A stretch of 64,000 nucleotides of DNA from Phycisphaerae bacterium (GTDB taxonomy: Bacteria > Planctomycetota > Phycisphaerae > Tepidisphaerales > Tepidisphaeraceae), in the NCBI GenBank assembly GCA_025924315.1, contig JAICIO010000007.1:1-64000 (forward strand). Reading direction: 5' to 3'. The notes under the pieces were generated by a model. That model saw nothing but the letters and a program-made list of their open reading frames with translations, was not told the DNA's origin and ran no database searches. Below, piece after piece: positions 4,977 through 39,191 of the stretch (position 1 is its first letter; each line of letters starts with the position of its first letter). Both the position numbers and the translations under genes were made by a program.

Positions 4977-5129
4977 TTCTCCGCTCCCCTCGCGGAAGAG
5001 GCAGGGTGAGGGAGAAGCGTGAGGTCTAAGGCCGCGCCGATCTCGCCGAAAACGTGAGTCGTCATTCTGAGCGAAGCGAAGAATCTCGATATCGCGTGCC
5101 GCGCTCGATCCCGAGATCCTTCGCTGCGC
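4977..5129. repeat. SEGS-type inverted repeat, copy 1
   Basis: The repeat proper runs 5053-5150. Left arm CATTCTGAGCGAAGCGAAG, right arm CTTCGCTGCGCTCAGGATG, and outer flanks CGTGAGTC / GACTCACG. Two more copies are at 34144-34224 and 37375-37455. When translated in one frame this family gives HPERSEGS. The first 75 bases after the gene (4977-5052) contain nothing I can name. Confidence 0.8.
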
Positions 5130-5339
5130 TCAGGATGACATTGACTCACGCTGTGAATCCTTCTTTCCATATGCATTACCACAGCAGTCTTCAGCCAACG
5201 GGATGTACCCACTCGCGGCGGCCGGATGAGGCTCGATCTTCCGGTTCAATGGCTCGATGGGGCCGTAGCACTCGTACGACGTGGGATGCGTGAACTCCAA
5301 TCCAATGATCGCGTCAATATCTGCTTGGGTAAGGGCCAT
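5130..5339 (-). CDS. Possible small protein, perhaps a gene remnant
   Basis: A 69-residue reading frame between the thioredoxin-like gene and xylulokinase, running toward the SEGS repeat. The N-terminus (MALTQADIDAIIGLEF) looks like real protein, and GYIPLAEDCCGNAYG resembles the middle of SMI1/KNR4 (SUKH) immunity-type domains. The last residues (RESMSS) and the TGA stop are encoded by the repeat. It may be a SUKH-like gene cut by repeat insertion, or not a gene at all. No convincing ribosome site was found. Confidence 0.35.
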   Translation of the reverse strand: MALTQADIDAIIGLEFTHPTSYECYGPIEPLNRKIEPHPAAASGYIPLAEDCCGNAYGKKDSQRESMSS

Positions 5340-30951: not shown

Positions 30952-31175
30952 GAAGTGGCAATTCCGCGCCGGCGCAGCGGAATACGCTGCGCAAGCGCAT
31001 GAAAGTTTGTGAAAAGGGAATGCCGCTGGCGTGAAACGCGGGTCAGATCAAACGCGCGAATTCAGAAGCCACCGGCGATGCGAGTTGAGCTGTGCGGGCA
31101 TGGCGGCTCCTTTTGTTGCGATGACGATGGCAGCTTACCGGTCCCTCTTGTGCGACTCAAGGGAAGAAGAGATTC

Positions 31176-31278
31176 GCGCAAAGACTACAAAGCTCGCAGA
31201 GAGCACAAAAGGATGAAACAGAGCGTTGTCTTTGCCTGCTTTGTTAACTTTGAGGGCTTTTGTGCTCTTCTTGTGGTC
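31176..31278. repeat. Degenerate inverted repeat (CAAAGCTCGCAGAGAGCACAAAAG family)
   Basis: Left arm ACAAAGCTCGCAGAGAGCAC and AAAAG; right arm CTTTGAGGGCTTTTGTGCTC. The 335-bp gap 30952-31286 holds nothing else recognisable apart from this pair and the start of a few short open frames. Confidence 0.6.
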
Positions 31279-31286
31279 GTGAGACG

Positions 31287-31661
31287 CTACGCGGCGTCGG
31301 GGAGCTTCGTGTACCAGCGGTCCATGAAGCGGGCACCCACGTTATACACGTCTTCCGCGACGCGTTGGCAGTGGGCGGCCGTGCAGGGGATTTCGATCGG
31401 GCCGGCGGCGCTTTGCATCTGGATCGCGAAGGCCTGGCCGGAATTCATCGAGACGGAGGTCGCCATGCCCAGGCCTGTGCTGGAAAAATCACGAAGCCAG
31501 GCGCGGTGGACCTTGTTCGCCGCGGGGCCGGGGACTTTCAGCATGATGCGGTACCGCACGCCGCTGCGCTGCTCGGAGCGGTTCTCGCGCGAGCGTTCGA
31601 TGATCCGCCGGGCGTTCATCGAAAGGATCAGCTGAGCAAATCGTTCGGCGGTGAGGTCCAT
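31287..31661 (-). CDS. PilZ-like domain protein
   Basis: A 124-residue protein with a PilZ-like c-di-GMP receptor domain: RSGVRYRIMLKVPGP (R-x-x-x-R), then LRDFSSTGLGMAT (D-x-S-x-x-G). It may bind c-di-GMP and control motility or exopolysaccharide. It is convergent with no close neighbour. Confidence 0.75.
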   Translation of the reverse strand: MDLTAERFAQLILSMNARRIIERSRENRSEQRSGVRYRIMLKVPGPAANKVHRAWLRDFSSTGLGMATSVSMNSGQAFAIQMQSAAGPIEIPCTAAHCQRVAEDVYNVGARFMDRWYTKLPDAA

Positions 31662-31704
31662 AAGAAGTAGGCGAATCTCCCATCAGATATCGGCTAATCC
31701 GGAG

Positions 31705-31779
31705 GAAGCCAGTAGCCAGAAGCCAGAAGCCAGACATCGCGCGTTTCTTCTGGCTTCTGGCCTCTGGCTTCTGGCTTCT
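31705..31779. repeat. Inverted repeat of AGCCAGAAGCCAG units, copy 1
   Basis: Left arm AGCCAGAAGCCAGAAGCCAG, right arm TGGCTTCTGGCCTCTGGCTT. A second pair is at 34100-34279, where it surrounds a SEGS repeat. These 9- or 8-base units are imperfect and may change in number. Confidence 0.8.
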
Positions 31780-32052
31780 CTCCCCGCCTATACTGTTATC
31801 GGTCCGGGAAGGCGGGGTCCCGGCGCAGCACTTGCGCCGGACTGGCGTTGCAAACGTAGAGATTTCTTGACCATATGTGCCGCGGACCGGTAGATTTACC
31901 GTTCGCGGCCGCAGGTCGTTGGACCTGCCCTTTACGCACGGTCGGTGAGGATTCTGGCGTCAACCTAATCCTCGGCCAGCGCCTGCTTTGATGAACACCC
32001 GTTCCCGCTCGCATGCGGGACTGTCTCCACAGCTGAGTTTGGAGGTCTGTAT
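31780..32052 (+). promoter_or_regulatory. Leader of the coiled-coil gene
   Basis: A possible sigma-70 promoter: TTGACC at 31867-31872 and TAGATT at 31891-31896 (18-base spacing). The rest of the 270-bp stretch includes a few short inverted segments (CCGGCGCAGCACTTGCGCCGG) but no recognisable RNA family. GGAGG lies seven bases before the start at 32053. Confidence 0.35.
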
Positions 32053-33513
32053 ATGCCCCCCGTCAACCAAGGATCGCGAACAGCGCTGATCACCTGGACC
32101 GTGGCGATGTCGATCGCCTGCGTCGTCGCCGTGATCCTCTGCTTCTACTTCTACATCGACTCCTCGCACGCCCGTGAAGCACTGGCCACCGCGCAAACGA
32201 AATACAAAGACATCATCGCCGAAGGCGCGCTCAACAGCTCGGACGTCGCCGATGCGAAGGCCGCGAAGGACAAGGTCGGCCTGCCGGCCAGCGCCAGCGT
32301 GGTTGACGTCCTGCTCAAGGAGCGCGACGACCTCGCGAAGCTCGCCGCTGGAAGCGACTATGCCGGCGCGGTGAGTTCCGCGCCGACAACGATGAAGAAC
32401 GCCCTCGACCGTGCCAAGAAGGCCGGCGGGACGATGCCCTCGGCTGCGAATCTTTCCGATACGGTGAACGCGCTCTCGAATGCCTTGGGCGCGCGTCAGA
32501 CCGAGGTTGAGAACCTCAAGGCGCAGCTCGGCGATGCGAACAAAAAGCTGCAGGCCGACGCCGGCGAAATGCAGGCGATGCGGCAGGCGATGGACCAGCA
32601 GCTGGCGAAGGTCCGAGCCGATGCCGACGCTGCGACCGCTTCGGCCTCGACGGATCGCACCAGCAAGGATGAGCAGCTCAAGAAGATCTCGTCCGACTTT
32701 GATGCCCAGCTGAAGGCCGCCACCGAAAACATCAACCAGCAGCAGGTGCAGATCGGCGATCTGAACAAGCAGATCAACGAAAAGAACATCATGATCGCCC
32801 AGTTGCAGCAGCGTCTGGGTGACATCCGCCCGAACGTTGCGAACCAGACGGTTCGCCAGGCCGATGGCAAGATCACCAGCCTGCCGGGCAATGGCATCGC
32901 GTATATCGATCTGGGCAACGGCGATCACGTCGTGCCGGGCATGACCTTTGAAGTGTACGATCGCGCCCAGGGCGTTCCGCCGCCGGGTGATCCCGCGACG
33001 ATCGAAAACCTGCCGGCCGGCAAAGGCTCGATCGAAGTGCTCAGCGTCGGCCCGACCAGCAGCGAATGCCGCGTGGTCAAGACGCAGCTCGGGCAGAACA
33101 TCAACGATGGCGACATCATCGCCAACGTGGTGTACGACAAGAATCACAAGAACGCGTTCTTCGTCTACGGCAACTTCGATCTGACCAAGGACGGCCCGCC
33201 GGGCCCGAACGATCAGCCGCGCCCGCAGGACGCGGAGGTCATCAAGCGCCTCATCACCCAATGGGGCGGCACGATCGTCGATAAGATCAACGTCAACACC
33301 GACTTCGTTGTCCTGGGCAAGGAGCCGGTTGTTCCGGAGTACACCAAGGAACAGCTGAACGACCCGCTCATGGTCGCCGCCTACAACAAGGCGCAGGATG
33401 AGCTGCAGAAGTACGACTCGATCGTGGATCAGGCCAAAGCCCTGCACATCCCGATCCTGAACCAACCGCGGTTCCTGTACATGACCGGTTACTACGACAT
33501 GTCGAAGCGGTAA
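32053..33513 (+). CDS. Membrane-anchored coiled-coil protein with BRCT-like C-terminus
   Basis: A 486-residue protein: one N-terminal membrane helix (LITWTVAMSIACVVAVILCFYFYI, about 12-35), then long coiled coil (about 120-275, rich in Lys/Gln/Asp/Ala), then a beta domain (LPGNGIAYIDLGNGDHVVPG to about 360), and a C-terminal segment of about 88 residues resembling a BRCT domain: WGGTIVDKINVNTDFVVLGK (403-422), AKALHIPILNQPRFLYMTGY (461-480). BRCT domains bind phosphopeptides or DNA ends and are known mainly in ligases. A perfect terminator follows the gene. Function unknown; a cell-envelope or division-related structural role is possible. Confidence 0.82.
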   Translation: MPPVNQGSRTALITWTVAMSIACVVAVILCFYFYIDSSHAREALATAQTKYKDIIAEGALNSSDVADAKAAKDKVGLPASASVVDVLLKERDDLAKLAAGSDYAGAVSSAPTTMKNALDRAKKAGGTMPSAANLSDTVNALSNALGARQTEVENLKAQLGDANKKLQADAGEMQAMRQAMDQQLAKVRADADAATASASTDRTSKDEQLKKISSDFDAQLKAATENINQQQVQIGDLNKQINEKNIMIAQLQQRLGDIRPNVANQTVRQADGKITSLPGNGIAYIDLGNGDHVVPGMTFEVYDRAQGVPPPGDPATIENLPAGKGSIEVLSVGPTSSECRVVKTQLGQNINDGDIIANVVYDKNHKNAFFVYGNFDLTKDGPPGPNDQPRPQDAEVIKRLITQWGGTIVDKINVNTDFVVLGKEPVVPEYTKEQLNDPLMVAAYNKAQDELQKYDSIVDQAKALHIPILNQPRFLYMTGYYDMSKR

Positions 33514-33540
33514 TCGCTTTGGATAAGTCGATCAAACGAA

Positions 33541-33574
33541 AAAACTTGAGGCCGCGAGGCCTCAAGTTTTTTTA
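33541..33574 (+). terminator. Intrinsic terminator of the coiled-coil gene
   Basis: AAAACTTGAGGCC, loop GCGA, GGCCTCAAGTTTTTTT: a 13-bp perfect stem with a T-run, 27 bases after the stop. By its symmetry (A-run at the left) it could work in both directions. Confidence 0.9.
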
Positions 33575-33588
33575 TTGTTGCCGACTCT

Positions 33589-33665
33589 TGCAGGGTCCGC
33601 TTCAGCGGACCGGTTATTCCGTTCGAAAACGGCAGGATAGTCGGTCCGCTGAAGCGGGCCCTACA
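33589..33665. repeat. REP-type inverted pair A, copy 2 (GTCCGC subtype)
   Basis: Left arm CAGGGTCCGCTTCAGCGGAC then CGGTTATTCC; right arm GTCGGTCCGCTGAAGCGGGC then CCTACAG. The bases that differ from copy 1 are matched on the other strand of each hairpin, which keeps the stem. Confidence 0.9.
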
Positions 33666-33687
33666 GCGTTTCCGGGCATCGGGTCTA

Positions 33688-34149
33688 TTAACTCGTGCGG
33701 CTGGTCATCTTGCGGGCCACTTGAGCGATCACCCGCGCGTCCACCTTCCCGCTCTGGTGCTTCACTGCCTTGGCCAGCACAGACGGGCACAGCAAAAGCG
33801 TAAGCGGGCTCGAAACCGATTGCTCCTCCGCGAGCGTCTTAAGCTGCCGCACTTCCGACGGCTTGAGGTTGATCCGCTTCATCACTTCCTTCAGCAGCTT
33901 CCCCTGATGATTGAGCGAGCGCGGCGACAGATCGCGCTTGCGCCGATGGCTGAAGAGCACCAGGAGAATGACGATCCCCGCCGCGCCAAAGAGAAGCGCG
34001 ACAAACTTACTTGGATCCGCCGGCTCATTCAGGTTCTGATTGAGGCTTTTTAAGACTTCTTCTGGGGTGGGATTGGCGTAGACCGGGAGAGAGAGGAAAG
34101 AAGCCAGGAGCCAGAAGCCAGGAGCCAGAAGAGATCGAGCGACGCTCAT
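33688..34149 (-). CDS. Small exported membrane protein with repeat-derived signal region
   Basis: A 153-residue protein with a signal peptide (MSVARSLLAPGFWLLASFLS...VYA), a membrane helix (FVALLFGAAGIVILLVLF), a basic stretch, and a C-terminal helical domain (LKEVMKRINLKPSEVRQLK). The start region lies on a SEGS repeat and the hydrophobic core LLAPGFWLLAS is encoded by the arm of another repeat. The frame is open further upstream to an ATGA overlap with the HEAT-repeat gene at 34287, which would add 46 repeat-encoded residues. I favour 34149 because it gives a normal signal peptide, but the other start is possible. Confidence 0.6.
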   Translation of the reverse strand: MSVARSLLAPGFWLLASFLSLPVYANPTPEEVLKSLNQNLNEPADPSKFVALLFGAAGIVILLVLFSHRRKRDLSPRSLNHQGKLLKEVMKRINLKPSEVRQLKTLAEEQSVSSPLTLLLCPSVLAKAVKHQSGKVDARVIAQVARKMTSRTS

Positions 34150-34279
34150 TCTGAGCGAAGCGAAGAATCTCGAAATCGGGCGCAACTTGCGATACGGAGA
34201 TCCTTCGCTTCGCTCAGGATGACATGCGCGCGCCTTCTCCCGCGCGTCTGGCTCCTGGCTCGTGGCTTCTGGCTTCTGG
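34100..34279. repeat. Nested inverted repeats: AGCCAGAAGCCAG pair around SEGS copy 2
   Basis: Outer arms 34100-34131 (AGCCAGGAGCCAGAAGCCAG) and 34248-34279 (CTGGCTCCTGGCTCGTGGCT). Inside is a full SEGS repeat at 34144-34224. The whole block lies in the 5' region of the small membrane-protein gene and remains an open reading frame through it. Confidence 0.85.
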
Positions 34280-34283
34280 TCCG

Positions 34284-36212
34284 TCATCCCGCCACCTGCT
34301 TCTGCTTCGCCGCCTGCACGGCTTCGACCACCTGCTTGATCACGCCAAGCGCATATCTCCGAACCCGCAGGTTCTCATCCTGCTTCGCGATGCGTCCCAC
34401 TTCGTTGATCAGCTGCCAGATGCCCGTCTGCCGCAGCGCCCACATCGCACTGATGCGATGCTCCGGCCGCTGGTCGCGCAGCATGCCGAGCAACTGCTGG
34501 CTCGCGGTGCCGACGCGCATGCGATGCATCGCCTTGATCGCGTTCGCGCGCTCCCGGTTGTGCGACGATCGCGCCCGCTGCGCGAGCATCGGAAGGAACT
34601 GCACTTCCTTTTTCGATTCGAGCACTTCGATGGCGTTGGCCCGCACGCGCGCGTCGGTGTCGGTGAGCACGCGCTCGAGGATCGCATCGGATGCGAGCGC
34701 CGGCATTTCGCCGAGCAGACCGACCGCCTTGCTGCGCACCTTCGCATGCGGATGCTGACACATCGGGATCAGCACGGTCTTGAGCACTTCAGTCAAGCCG
34801 AGCTCCTGCACGATCTGCATCGCCTTGATCGCCTGATCGACCGGGCCGGTTTGCAGGCGCTTGGTCAGCCGCTGCAGCGCATCGGGAAGGAGCTTGAGCA
34901 TCGCCCGGCCGGCTTGCTTGCGCGTCGCCTTGTCCATCCGATCGAACCGCGTCCAGAATTGATCGAAACCGGATTGCCCGATCGCACGGCTGATGACCTT
35001 GCGCACCGATTCGGGCGCGTTCGTCATCAGCTGGAGGAGCATGTTCTCGAAGTCCATCGGGCGCCTGCGCACGATCTCGCGCGCGGCCATGCGCATGAGC
35101 CGCTCGTCCGGATCATTCAGAAACGATCGCAGCAATTGCACGGAAGATCCGCGACGCCGACGCATCGCGACGCGCACCAGACGCAGGCGCGCATCAAAGT
35201 CGTCCTTCGCGTGCTCGCGCAGGCGCTCGAGCCGCTCGTCCTGCATCACGTCGTGCATGCCGGAAACTGCGATCCATTCCGCGACCTTCGAGCTATCCCC
35301 CGGCGGACGACGCTCGATGTCGTGCATCAGTTCCGCCTCGCCCCACCACGTGCCGCGAGTTACCTGATGAATGCACAGCTGCAGTTGGTGATCCTTGAGC
35401 CAATGTGTCTTGCGCAGCAGCGCATCGAGCACCGGCGCTTCGTCGATGTGTGAAAACGCGATGCCAAAGTGCGAGCGAAGCTGACCGTGCGACGCGCCCA
35501 GCAGAAATGCTTCGACGTGCTCGGCCGAGGGAGGTTGCTGCAATCGCCGAACCATCGGCGATTGCCCGCCGTGCTTGACCGTCGAAAGAATCGCCAGCGT
35601 CTTGCTGCCCGGCCAATCGCACAAAAGCAGCGCCGCCCGGAGCAGATCCTGACCATGCTTCCCGCGATGCACGTCCATCGCCCGCGCGACGGCGGCTTCG
35701 ATCTCCGGACGTTGCTCCATTAGAAGCTGGTAAGACGAAGACACAGCCGAGGGCGGCTGTGCCACACGCGGATCCCCTTTCTGCAACGCCCGCGTTTCGA
35801 TCGCCGCCCAGCGCGCCAGCGCCACCATCGCTTCGGTCGCGGACTTCGACAGCGCTTCGTCCGTATCGTGCAGGTTTTCCGAAAGAACGTACGCGAGCTT
35901 ACCTTGCCGGCCCAGCGCGATCAGCTTCATCGCCGCCATGCGCAGCTCGTGGTTGTCGCTCCGCCCTGACTCACGCAGCGCGTGATAGAAAAGTTTGATC
36001 TGCGAAAGGATCTCGCGCTGCAGCGACTCGGGAAGCTTGTCGTATTGCTCGACAATCCCACTCAGCCCGCGGACGGTTTCACGCTTGAGCAGCGCGTTCA
36101 TCGCGAGCGTCTTTTCCTGCGGATTCCCCAGGCGCAGCGCCTCGAGCAGCAGCTCGTCGGCCGCCCCGTTCGAAGTTTCCACCAGCGCAGCAATCAACTG
36201 ATCGAGAAGCAC
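34284..36212 (-). CDS. HEAT-repeat protein
   Basis: A 642-residue soluble scaffold made of HEAT-type helical repeats (for example LIALGRQGKLAYVLSENLHD; MCQHPHAKVRSKAVGLLGEM; VLTDTDARVRANAIEVLESK; LRVRRYALGVIKQVV). Between repeats there are two in-frame palindromes: 35743-35765 (VAQPPSAV) and 35540-35565 (QSPMVRRLQ). It has no signal peptide. The stop overlaps the possible upstream start of the next gene. Its role is unknown; the neighbours are membrane and LRR proteins. Confidence 0.85.
   Translation of the reverse strand: MLLDQLIAALVETSNGAADELLLEALRLGNPQEKTLAMNALLKRETVRGLSGIVEQYDKLPESLQREILSQIKLFYHALRESGRSDNHELRMAAMKLIALGRQGKLAYVLSENLHDTDEALSKSATEAMVALARWAAIETRALQKGDPRVAQPPSAVSSSYQLLMEQRPEIEAAVARAMDVHRGKHGQDLLRAALLLCDWPGSKTLAILSTVKHGGQSPMVRRLQQPPSAEHVEAFLLGASHGQLRSHFGIAFSHIDEAPVLDALLRKTHWLKDHQLQLCIHQVTRGTWWGEAELMHDIERRPPGDSSKVAEWIAVSGMHDVMQDERLERLREHAKDDFDARLRLVRVAMRRRRGSSVQLLRSFLNDPDERLMRMAAREIVRRRPMDFENMLLQLMTNAPESVRKVISRAIGQSGFDQFWTRFDRMDKATRKQAGRAMLKLLPDALQRLTKRLQTGPVDQAIKAMQIVQELGLTEVLKTVLIPMCQHPHAKVRSKAVGLLGEMPALASDAILERVLTDTDARVRANAIEVLESKKEVQFLPMLAQRARSSHNRERANAIKAMHRMRVGTASQQLLGMLRDQRPEHRISAMWALRQTGIWQLINEVGRIAKQDENLRVRRYALGVIKQVVEAVQAAKQKQVAG
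35540..35565. repeat. Palindrome inside the HEAT-repeat gene
   Basis: Arms GCAATCGCCGA and TCGGCGATTGC around ACCA. In frame with the gene. I saw no second copy in the window, so its membership in a repeat family is only inferred from the resemblance to the other in-gene palindromes. Confidence 0.55.
35743..35765. repeat. AQPPSAV-type palindrome inside the HEAT-repeat gene
   Basis: ACAGCCGAGGGCGGCTGTGC plus CACA; the same sequence core as the repeat at 3084-3117 and encoding VAQPPSAV on the minus strand in frame. The left outer arm (GTGG) is missing here. Confidence 0.85.
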
Positions 36213-36273
36213 ATCATCTTTATCGGACGTTGGATGCGTCAGACTTGAGGCGCAGTTCGCGTTCGTCTTCTCT

Positions 36274-36347
36274 TGTAGGGTGCGCTTCAGCGCACCAGTT
36301 ATTCATCGGGAAAGGCAATAACCGGTGCGCTGAAGCGCACCCTACAA
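36274..36347. repeat. REP-type inverted pair A, copy 3 (GTGCGC subtype)
   Basis: Left arm GTAGGGTGCGCTTCAGCGCA then CCAGTTATTC; right arm AATAACCGGTGCGCTGAAGC then GCACCCTACAA. Between the LRR-like gene and the HEAT-repeat gene. Confidence 0.9.
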
Positions 36348-36358
36348 CAGCGCGTTGT

Positions 36359-37336
36359 TTAGGTCGGCAGCAAGTCGATCGTGTTGTAGAAATCATTCGG
36401 ATCGATCTTTTTCCCCTGGTAGTAGCACGCGTTGTGCGTCGTGACGAGCAGCTTGTTGTTCCCCGCGGACATCTGGACGACCGCGTCGTCGCGGACCTGG
36501 CCGTGGATGGAGATACGTTTGAGTGACCCCGATCGCACGATCGGCCCGACATCAGTCGCGTTCACCGGCGTATCGGAGATGAACAGTTCTTCCAGTGTCT
36601 TACACTTTTCGACGAAGCTCAGGTCGTCGATCGGATGATGGAGCCGAAGATGCAGCGAGACGAGGCCTTCGACCGCCGCGAATGTGAGATCATTCACTTT
36701 CTTGCATGCCTCGACATCGATCGCGGGCACCTTCAGCGCGCTCATGTCCACCAGCGAGCGGCAGTTCAGGCAGAAGACGACCGACAGCGTCTTGCAGTTG
36801 ATCCCCTTGAACGATTCGAGGGCACCACGACGGACCGTGAGATTTTCGAGCGAGAGGGATTCGAGTCCGGCCAGATCTTTGTTGGGCCAATTCGCCAGAT
36901 CGAGGCGCTTTACCGATGAAGCCGCGCCGATGAACGGAATGTCCTGCGGCTGCGCGTTTTCGATTTCGAGCTGCCGCAACTTGAGCTTCGGCAGGGGCGC
37001 GAGGGAGCGCTTCGACAGCAGATCCGTCGCGACCCGGAGCGTGCGGAGGCCTTGGGCGCCGAGCAGATCTTCGATGCTCGACACGCGCGGTCCGCGGATC
37101 TCGACGTATTCGAGGTTCGGAAAGAGCGCGCTAACCGCCAGCGACTGCTGCTGCGAAGTCGTGTCGATGACGAGCGAGTTGACTTCCTGCCGTAGCCGCT
37201 GCGGTTCGAGCGCCGCCATCAGCGCCCGCACCTGCACGGCGCGTCGGCCGGGGTTTTGAAAATGCACCTGCGTCGTTTCAGGCTCGATGACGCAAGCCTC
37301 CGGCCGCGATTCATCGAGAAATACTTGTCGTGCCAT
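36359..37336 (-). CDS. Leucine-rich-repeat-like protein
   Basis: A 325-residue soluble protein with irregular leucine-rich repeats (LFPNLEYVEIRGPRVSSIED; LPKLKLRQLEIENAQPQDIP; LESLSLENLTVRRGALESF; CKTLEELFISDTPVNATDVG). No signal peptide. Probably a protein-interaction scaffold. Downstream on the same strand is the HEAT-repeat protein, separated by a REP pair. Confidence 0.78.
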   Translation of the reverse strand: MARQVFLDESRPEACVIEPETTQVHFQNPGRRAVQVRALMAALEPQRLRQEVNSLVIDTTSQQQSLAVSALFPNLEYVEIRGPRVSSIEDLLGAQGLRTLRVATDLLSKRSLAPLPKLKLRQLEIENAQPQDIPFIGAASSVKRLDLANWPNKDLAGLESLSLENLTVRRGALESFKGINCKTLSVVFCLNCRSLVDMSALKVPAIDVEACKKVNDLTFAAVEGLVSLHLRLHHPIDDLSFVEKCKTLEELFISDTPVNATDVGPIVRSGSLKRISIHGQVRDDAVVQMSAGNNKLLVTTHNACYYQGKKIDPNDFYNTIDLLPT

Positions 37337-37374
37337 GACGTCCTCAAATCCAGTTGCGTGCCTTATCGAGCGCG

Positions 37375-37455
37375 TGTCATTCTGAGCGAAGCGAAGAATC
37401 TCGATATCGGATGCCGCTCGCGATCCCGAGATCCTTCGCTTCGCTCAGGATGACA
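37375..37455. repeat. SEGS-type inverted repeat, copy 3
   Basis: Left arm CATTCTGAGCGAAGCGAAG, right arm CTTCGCTTCGCTCAGGATG. Located between the FHA-GAF-PP2C gene and the LRR-like gene. Confidence 0.85.
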
Positions 37456-37478
37456 GAGCCCTCCAGATGACGGAGCAT

Positions 37479-39191
37479 TCACTCCCACTTCACCAACACC
37501 GCCGTCGCATCATCCGCCAGGTGATCCGTTCCGGCGTGCTCGATCAAATCGGTGAACAGGTTCGCAACGTAATCGTCATCACCGCTGCTCGCGCTCATCG
37601 ATCGCCGCAGGCCGTCCATCTGGAACTGCGCTTTGCTCGTCGATCCGTCCGCCGCGTGCACGACGCCGAACTCTTCGATGATGCCGTCGCTCACCACCAT
37701 GGCGCATCCGCCGGGCGGAAGTGTCACCGTCTCGGCAGCGTACACGCCGTCTTCCGTAATCCCTATCGGCAAACCCCCGCCCGCATCGAGCGACGTAAAA
37801 CTGCCGTCCGCATTTTTGATCGTCGCATAGCTGTGGCCGGCATCGACGTAGCTCAGGGTTCGCTCGTTCATGTCGTACACGCCGACCCACATCGTGACGA
37901 ACTTGTTCTCCGGTCGCCGCGGGTTCACGAAGCGATTGACCGCGGTCACTGCTTTTCCCGGATCGCGCGACTCCTTCAGCGCCGCGTGCAGATACCCCTG
38001 TGTCGCGGTCATGAGAACCGAAGCGGCCACGCCTTTGCCCGACACATCGCCCACCGCGACCGCGAGCTTCCCGTCTCCCAGATCGATGATATCGAAGAAG
38101 TCCCCGCCCACATACTGACCGGGCCGCGACTCGCCGATGCAGTGAAACCCACTGAACTCGTTGAGCCGCTTCGGCAGGATCCACTTCTGCGCCGCGGCCG
38201 CGGCTTTCAGGTCCGATTCGATGGTCGCCTGCCTGCGCTCCATGTCGATCCGTTTCAGGTTCGCCAGCGCCAAACTCGAAATGCGCCCCAGCGCCACCGC
38301 GAACGCGCTCGCATTGCGCCTGAGTTGCTGCCCCGCCGCGCCCCCGCGCGAATCGAGATACAAATACGCCGCCACCGTGTTCCCCAGCATCAGCGGAACA
38401 CACAGCGCCGCGGTGATGTTCATCTGCACGATGCTCTGCGAGATATTGTCGGTCGATCCCGGCCCGCTCAATTCCGCGACCACGCCGGTCGACGCCATGT
38501 TGATCAGCGACCGGCTGAACGTCGGCGGCGCGCTGGCGCTGGCAACGCCGTTCATTTTCGAGGAAACGATTTCGACCCCGCCCGACGCATCGGTCGGCTT
38601 GAGCATCACCGCATTGGTCAGCCCGGTTCCCGCGAGGGCGGTATCGAGCAGGAGCTGCGCCAGTTGCTGCTCGTTCTTCGCGCCATGAATCCCCGAAGCG
38701 CTTTCGAGCAACAGCGAAAGCATGTCGTCGGCGAGTCGCGCCTGGTCGACCTGCACGCTTCGCACCAGCGTGCGGCCGGCGTCTTCCGACGTGGTCATCC
38801 CGCGCTTTTTCGGATGCGAGCTGAAGCTGAACGTCCACGGAACGATGCGCACGAGATCGCCCTCGGTCAGCGGAACATCCGGCCCCTCCTCGAGCTTCAC
38901 GCCATTGACGAACGTCCCCCATCGGCTCTTCAGATCCGCGATGCGCCACGATTTTCCATCATGTGCAAACCGCGCATGAAACCGCGAAACCTTTTCCGCG
39001 TCGGCGGGCAGCCGCAGATCGCACTGCTCATGCCGCCCCAGCGTCAGCCCGCCGGCCTTGGGCGCCAGCGTGATCGAATCAATCGGCGAACCGATGATCG
39101 GCACCAGATAAGCCACATTGGACGGAGCTGCCTCGCCCATATGCGTCAAGGATAGTTGAAGAACGGGCAACTCGGAAGGATGAAGGATCAT
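37479..39191 (-). CDS. FHA-GAF-PP2C (SpoIIE-type) phosphatase
   Basis: A 570-residue signalling protein. FHA domain at about 40-125 (GGLTLGRHEQCDLRLPAD, EKVSRFHARF, SRWGTFVNG), a GAF domain at about 165-310 (LLDTALAGTGLTNAVMLKP, AALCVPLMLGNTVAAYLYL), then a SpoIIE/RsbU-type PP2C phosphatase (VGGDFFDIIDLGDGKLAVAVGDVSGKG, MWVGVYDMNERTLSYVDAGH, VVSDGIIEEF). Such phosphatases usually dephosphorylate an anti-anti-sigma factor; none is visible here. Start at 39191. Divergent from the haem-c toroid gene with about 50 bp between them. Confidence 0.93.
   Translation of the reverse strand: MILHPSELPVLQLSLTHMGEAAPSNVAYLVPIIGSPIDSITLAPKAGGLTLGRHEQCDLRLPADAEKVSRFHARFAHDGKSWRIADLKSRWGTFVNGVKLEEGPDVPLTEGDLVRIVPWTFSFSSHPKKRGMTTSEDAGRTLVRSVQVDQARLADDMLSLLLESASGIHGAKNEQQLAQLLLDTALAGTGLTNAVMLKPTDASGGVEIVSSKMNGVASASAPPTFSRSLINMASTGVVAELSGPGSTDNISQSIVQMNITAALCVPLMLGNTVAAYLYLDSRGGAAGQQLRRNASAFAVALGRISSLALANLKRIDMERRQATIESDLKAAAAAQKWILPKRLNEFSGFHCIGESRPGQYVGGDFFDIIDLGDGKLAVAVGDVSGKGVAASVLMTATQGYLHAALKESRDPGKAVTAVNRFVNPRRPENKFVTMWVGVYDMNERTLSYVDAGHSYATIKNADGSFTSLDAGGGLPIGITEDGVYAAETVTLPPGGCAMVVSDGIIEEFGVVHAADGSTSKAQFQMDGLRRSMSASSGDDDYVANLFTDLIEHAGTDHLADDATAVLVKWE

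Follow-up and report, generated by a model that had tools for sequence, protein, structure and literature searches.

The junction between a HEAT-repeat gene and a membrane-protein gene, within the 64,000-nucleotide stretch of DNA that we analysed (hereafter the window), contains two nested inverted repeats, and we think it probable that a gene-less relative of an IVP cassette entered this junction, that a REPIN-like element (SEGS) followed it, and that the composite has been kept as a readable source of leader peptide. What the sequences show is the anatomy and dispersion of the repeats, their absence from orthologues, the open frames, the recurrence in other genes and the association with IVP genes; the translation, export, mobility and order of insertion that this account involves are inferred. 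An inverted palindrome of AGCCAGR heptad arrays, best placed with the arrays that flank IVP genes, would have inserted at the operon junction just downstream of an ancestral ATGA coupling start, and SEGS would later have inserted into its loop. The leader would then consist of the GFWLLAS reading of the outward arm continued by what is left of the native one, FLSLPVYA, with translation most likely starting at 34287 by coupling to the HEAT gene and possibly at 34149 too. The composite would have been retained for two reasons: it is open in the frame of the gene, and its outward heptad arm encodes a hydrophobic segment in every case. The features are as follows.

34284-36212, minus strand: upstream HEAT-repeat gene (PF13646, E 7e-18); gene order kept in orthologues
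33688-34287, minus strand: membrane-protein gene, longest form, 199 aa; ATG at 34287 overlaps the HEAT stop
33688-34149, minus strand: membrane-protein gene read from an internal ATG at the SEGS edge, 153 aa; MSVARSLLAPGFWLLASFLSLPVYA followed by NPTPEEV
34247-34281, no strand assigned: heptad palindrome, left arm on the gene strand; AGCCAGR units, coding for the hydrophilic part QKPEATSQEPDA
34145-34223, no strand assigned: SEGS element, 79 bp, two inverted arms at fixed spacing, in the heptad loop; contains the ATG at 34147-34149
34099-34131, minus strand: heptad palindrome, right arm; codons 34131-34099 are exactly LLAPGFWLLAS, the predicted hydrophobic core of the leader
34075-34098, minus strand: putative remnant of the native leader, FLSLPVYA, with a V-Y-A cleavage-type motif at its end
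31705-31779, no strand assigned: second, simpler heptad palindrome in the window, with a 13-nt loop, outside any coding leader

The repeat block occupies positions 34097-34287, between the HEAT stop and the conserved body of the membrane-protein gene, a gene for which profile searches gave no Pfam or NCBIfam match. Its parts run along the gene strand in the order ATGACG, AGCCAGR array (34281-34247), SEGS loop (34223-34145), inverted array (34131-34099) and FLSLPVYA-NPTPEEV. The heptad arms (34099-34129 and 34247-34277) are 90% complementary and the SEGS arms (34146-34178 and 34190-34222) are 85% complementary, in agreement with the preliminary description of an inverted pair enclosing a SEGS inverted repeat; the exact 13-mer reported there for the pair is present only in the arm at 34109, its counterpart in the partner arm (34262-34274) having one mismatch. 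The same description's open frame from the ATGA overlap to the gene body is confirmed by the uninterrupted frame 34287-33688 on the minus strand, and the coincidence of codons 34131-34099 with the heptad arm likewise upholds its assignment of LLAPGFWLLAS to the repeat. As RNA, the block is predicted to form a single long nested stem (-127.7 kcal/mol, z -9.7), and a search for known structured RNAs returned no Rfam match across 31000-38000.

Both repeats belong to families that are dispersed in this genome, a draft assembly of 262 contigs. There are 15 near-matches to AGCCAGRAGCCAG in the window against 2.0 expected, and the exact 13-mer AGCCAGAAGCCAG has 98 matches in the 6.57-Mb genome compared with 0 for its reversed control; these genome-wide counts, together with shuffles, rule out a chance origin of the repeats. 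We examined about 0.68 Mb of sequence around repeat loci and read approximately 37 heptad loci. In 26 of these, an AGCCAG arm on the left faces a CTGGCT arm on the right as an inverted pair, and in the remainder the AGCCAG/CTGGCT pattern identifies one arm. The palindrome loops are short and different in every copy, and most palindromes occupy short gaps between co-oriented genes whose own start is past the arm. The sequence comparisons thus support the proposal that the heptad and SEGS repeats invaded an existing gene start at the HEAT/membrane-protein junction, since both families are dispersed and the orthologues examined outside one genus (g2, see below) have no repeats there.

The SEGS 14-mer has 195 matches (arms) in this genome, and the arms lie 50 nt apart in those loci read where both exact arms are present. 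An 18-mer from the element has 179 matches here and none in 11 relatives, so SEGS is lineage-specific. SEGS elements are found in three heptad loops (the window, L066 and L078), and taking approximately 100 elements, about 1 kb of loop and 6.6 Mb of genome we estimate that far fewer than one such nesting would be expected, which argues that the nesting is not due to chance; the position of SEGS inside the heptad loop suggests that it is probably the later arrival. With short palindromic arms arranged as inverted pairs at a fixed spacing in about 100 copies, SEGS resembles the REP/REPIN elements (PMC3116915), for which GTAG/CGTC superfamilies and occurrences of REPs inside coding regions are on record (PMC3733652). 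It differs in being nested in the loop of another repeat and in that none lies beside the sampled Y1 (RAYT-like) genes, and it may lack the GTAG tag (the consensus starts GTCAT, and the preceding base is variable, being C in a minority of copies). A profile search gave ten Y1_Tnp matches in the genome; the exact SEGS core is absent from five of the six of these regions that we read and lies about 4 kb away in the sixth, such that in none of the six is a RAYT (Y1 transposase) gene flanked by the repeat. A Y1/RAYT transposase was also considered as the mover of SEGS or the heptads and rejected, since the transposase genes that we read have neither an exact SEGS core nor an exact heptad core next to them. 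Two further SEGS elements are present in the window (5069-5131 and 37384-37446), both with 50-nt arm spacing and outside coding leaders.

The heptad palindrome reads GFWLLAS outward on both strands, and because 7 and 3 have no common factor the same outward heptapeptide appears whichever frame is used; 154 of 156 frames through outward arms are open. The inward reading is SQKPEAR, which is hydrophilic and net basic. By inspection, the membrane-protein leader matches the layout of a Sec signal peptide, with a basic MSVARS, a core LLAPGFWLLASFLSLPV and a VYA cleavage-type end (predicted, signal peptidase I), and we consider it supported by the sequence that the heptad arm constitutes the hydrophobic core of a leader that would be translated and exported. 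The hydrophobicity of the core is only moderate, its best 11-mer having a mean KD value of 1.81, at the weak end of the range of the orthologue leaders (0.97-3.0). Encoding the same hydrophobic peptide in every frame would give the palindromes a simple reason for survival at the 5' ends of exported genes.

Heptad-coded leaders recur in several other genes, consistent with the earlier suggestion that the repeats were kept as coding material. Four genes have usable starts only in or before the element: an LpoB-like lipoprotein gene (PF13036; leader FYWLLASGFWLLPMSC followed by K, with one extra ATG that precedes the lipobox Cys by just two codons), a PA14 protein gene (SWLLATGFWLLSFPAYA followed by GLTG, with the PF07691 domain from residue 41, directly after AYA), an ABC permease gene and the membrane-protein gene of the window. 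LpoB relatives in other genomes have lipobox leaders, and arrays of other units are present in the LpoB leader region of four genomes, with period 7 in G003, G004 and G010 and period 8 in G005, against a period-7 background of 3%. In G001, the lipoprotein gene next in the LpoB operon has a heptad-coded leader in both of two diverged operon copies (83% DNA identity). The two indels between these leaders measure 3 and 12 nt, not every one of the indels immediately upstream is divisible by three in length, and the 43 codons have 11, 10 and 16 differences by codon position, a weak third-position bias. These two copies (L132 on C180 and L155 on C128) are in one draft genome, which is possibly a strain mixture. 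All the leader cases are exported or membrane proteins; as numbers are small and about 41% of all genes called in heptad loci have a comparably hydrophobic N-terminus, this is suggestive and no proof. The arms at L084, L067, L070, L078, L066, L133, L146 and L147 were rejected as leader cases, since past the arm the downstream gene has (or at L084 may have) a start of its own. In several cases the inward arm encodes RSQKPEARSQ-like C-terminal tails on upstream genes; gene ends of this kind are seen at L068 3431-3510, L073 13213-13316, L075 5643-5770, and L080 5251-5270 and 5744-5770.

A search of 40 other genomes with the 153-aa product recovered relatives in 21, of which 20 belong to the same family. 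The closest orthologue shares about 50% identity, and the empty-site comparison is made with orthologues this distant, all from other genera. The HEAT gene precedes the membrane-protein gene in the orthologues examined, and outside genus g2 the 260 nt that precede the body are free of period-7 and period-8 arrays. In most orthologues the leader has a hydrophobic core and finishes in an A-x-A-like motif (e.g. MTRGLKFILAACLIWCINTQMALA followed by KPTSEE), and some have a short hydrophobic start only (e.g. MFSLPSLLAATT in L025), similar to the residual FLSLPVYA. With most orthologues having leaders and no block, the leader is evidently old, its DNA having been replaced or extended. The preliminary description had called for such a comparison and would have counted the same leader encoded by unrelated DNA against its proposal; the leaders of the relatives are indeed unrelated DNA, and we interpret this as an old leader function whose DNA has been replaced, which is no argument against invasion. 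Genus g2 (G001 and G022) has different arrays at the same junction, GTTTCAC heptads together with GGACGCGG octads, and here too the frame runs uninterrupted to the body, starting at a GTGA or ATGA overlap, although G001 and G022 differ in length by 23 codons. These arrays would have been acquired independently.

Which start codon is used, and whether the block is translated at all, can be weighed together. An AAGGNGG-like stretch is present immediately before the HEAT stop in many genomes, and in the window a Shine-Dalgarno-like AGGTG lies 5 nt upstream of the ATG at 34287; we therefore favour 34287 as the ancestral, coupled start, and the insertion probably left the start codon unmoved. The preliminary description instead proposed that the repeats had perhaps moved the start codon, with 34149 as the likely start. 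The position of that ATG stands, at the edge of the element at 34145-34223, and it would give a compact and tidy 25-residue signal peptide (MSVARS-LLAPGFWLLASFLSLPVYA); crude codon-usage gene calling also picks it. We nonetheless regard a moved start as rather doubtful, since there is no Shine-Dalgarno-like sequence upstream of 34149 and the g2 orthologues begin with GTGA or ATGA at the same junction, their frames open through their own repeats; the coupling start, next to the conserved AAGGNGG-like stretch, looks ancestral. Less likely still is that the block is an untranslated spacer with an accidentally open frame, the protein starting downstream or being poorly made. An open frame is cheap when outward arms are so rarely interrupted, and at most palindromes the adjoining gene does begin beyond the arm. 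Here, however, there is no ATG, GTG or TTG between the arm and the conserved body, and the gene would be startless without the repeats; the PA14 and ABC permease genes are startless in the same way, the only other ATG of the LpoB-like gene is the one next to its lipobox, and the exported or membrane nature of the leader cases and the lipoprotein leaders of LpoB orthologues also argue against a spacer. We thus retain, as the most likely interpretation, a translated leader read from 34287.

One AGCCAG pair in this genome (C4:116322-116769) connects the heptad palindromes with IVP genes, as it encloses a gene of the 23S-rRNA-IVP/four-helix-bundle family (PF05635, E 7.5e-35; TIGR02436, E 4e-32). 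At this locus (L061 9298-9795) the C-terminus of the IVP gene continues into the right arm (FWLLAPGFWLL). The junction has inverted short-unit (7-11 nt) arrays like those of IVP/S23 cassettes and shares its unit with the C4 cassette; there is no IVP gene between its arms, and since the loop contains SEGS alone the junction copy is at most a gene-less relative of the cassette. Across ten genomes of the same family, flanking inverted repeats are present at 25 of 30 IVP genes and at 2 of 25 control genes, and the arrays have period 7 most often and period 8 second, with other periods nearly absent. We also examined 75 named IVP loci from Acidobacteria, Bacteroidota, Cyanobacteria, Chloroflexi, Planctomycetes, Proteobacteria, CPR and one archaeon. 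Flanking inverted repeats are found at 54 of the 75 and at none of 142 controls shifted within the same contigs, and period-7 arrays at 38 of the 75 compared with 3 of the 142; the Bacteroidales arrays have periods of 8-11. Of these 54 loci, 47 have a purine-rich upstream arm, and in 49 that arm has more G than C. Genomes with a given cassette also contain dispersed copies of its array unit: GAGGACT is found in genus g2 only, AGTANGC mainly in G013 (95 matches, many as inverted pairs), and AGTTGYY mainly in G001, G003 and G022. The loops of gene-less palindromes share nothing with the IVP cassette except a few bases, and a simple internal deletion therefore lacks support. Our literature search, with subscription journals outside its scope, found no description of a general association between inverted heptad arrays and IVP genes beyond the case of Coxiella.

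A broader hypothesis, which we hold about as readily as its contrary, is that the genes of the IVP/four-helix-bundle family belong to a widespread mobile element, bounded at its ends by inverted arrays whose short tandem units are usually of 7 nt and purine-rich on the upstream side, and that the heptad palindromes dispersed through many genomes derive from this element and lack its gene. The polarity of the AGCCAG unit (hydrophilic inward and hydrophobic outward in every frame) would allow these palindromes to survive at the ends of genes, where they would serve as C-terminal tails and ready-made signal peptides. Alternatively, the palindromes could be unrelated to IVP genes, with polymerase slippage generating tandem heptads, template switching generating palindromes, and IVP genes merely being nearby. 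In many bacteria no other short repeat is as common as the heptad, according to PMC4679880, and the loops are unrelated from copy to copy; both points favour this alternative. We consider it unlikely in view of the inverted arrays at most IVP loci of many phyla and at no shifted position, the purine-rich and G-rich upstream arm, and the Coxiella IVS, where the S23 ORF likewise adjoins an inverted-repeat stem together with tandem heptamers (PMC4990558). The hypothesis of a mobile element with an IVP gene would bring two long-standing puzzles into a single testable proposal: that of heptad repeats, and that of the unexplained IVP genes (a widespread and poorly understood four-helix-bundle family).

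The junction block can be compared with three other systems. Rickettsia palindromic elements are described as dispersed palindromes of about 100-150 bp in ORFs, with the frame intact (PMC3767692, citing Ogata et al. 2000); as judged from that description, the block is similar in being a dispersed palindromic repeat that leaves ORF 34287-33688 unbroken. It differs in its make-up, tandem heptads that enclose a second repeat, in its location at gene starts, and in supplying putative leader peptides. Selfish palindromes within genes are thus already known, and what is added here is that a repeat arm appears functional, as the leader core of several proteins. The 23S rRNA IVS with its S23/IVP gene, exemplified by Coxiella burnetii (a 28-bp inverted-repeat stem with tandem GACAGAT heptamers beside the S23 ORF, in strain-variable number; PMC4990558), likewise combines an inverted-repeat stem with tandem heptamers next to an ORF, and an AGCCAG IVP cassette is present in the same genome as the junction. 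The junction copy, in contrast, has no gene and lies between two protein genes and not in 23S rRNA. The heptanucleotide repeats of Beggiatoaceae, such as TAACTGA, are also many, dispersed, intergenic and tandem, sometimes at ORF ends; unlike the AGCCAG palindromes they are direct repeats that contain stops and lie upstream of start codons, and we found no link to IVP in that report (PMC4679880).

Several additional repeats were noted in the loci read. At L064 1703-1729 (C18 of this genome) an AGCCAG array is in frame within a predicted 700-aa protein, at about residue 564, and resembles the in-ORF palindromes of Rickettsia. At L075 5618-5795 the loop of an AGCCAG palindrome encloses a second palindrome, made of another heptad (GGTGATT). 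A further dispersed-looking repeat is located in the window between two genes (approximately 36230-36330), with VGCASAH.../CAEAHPT readings on both strands.
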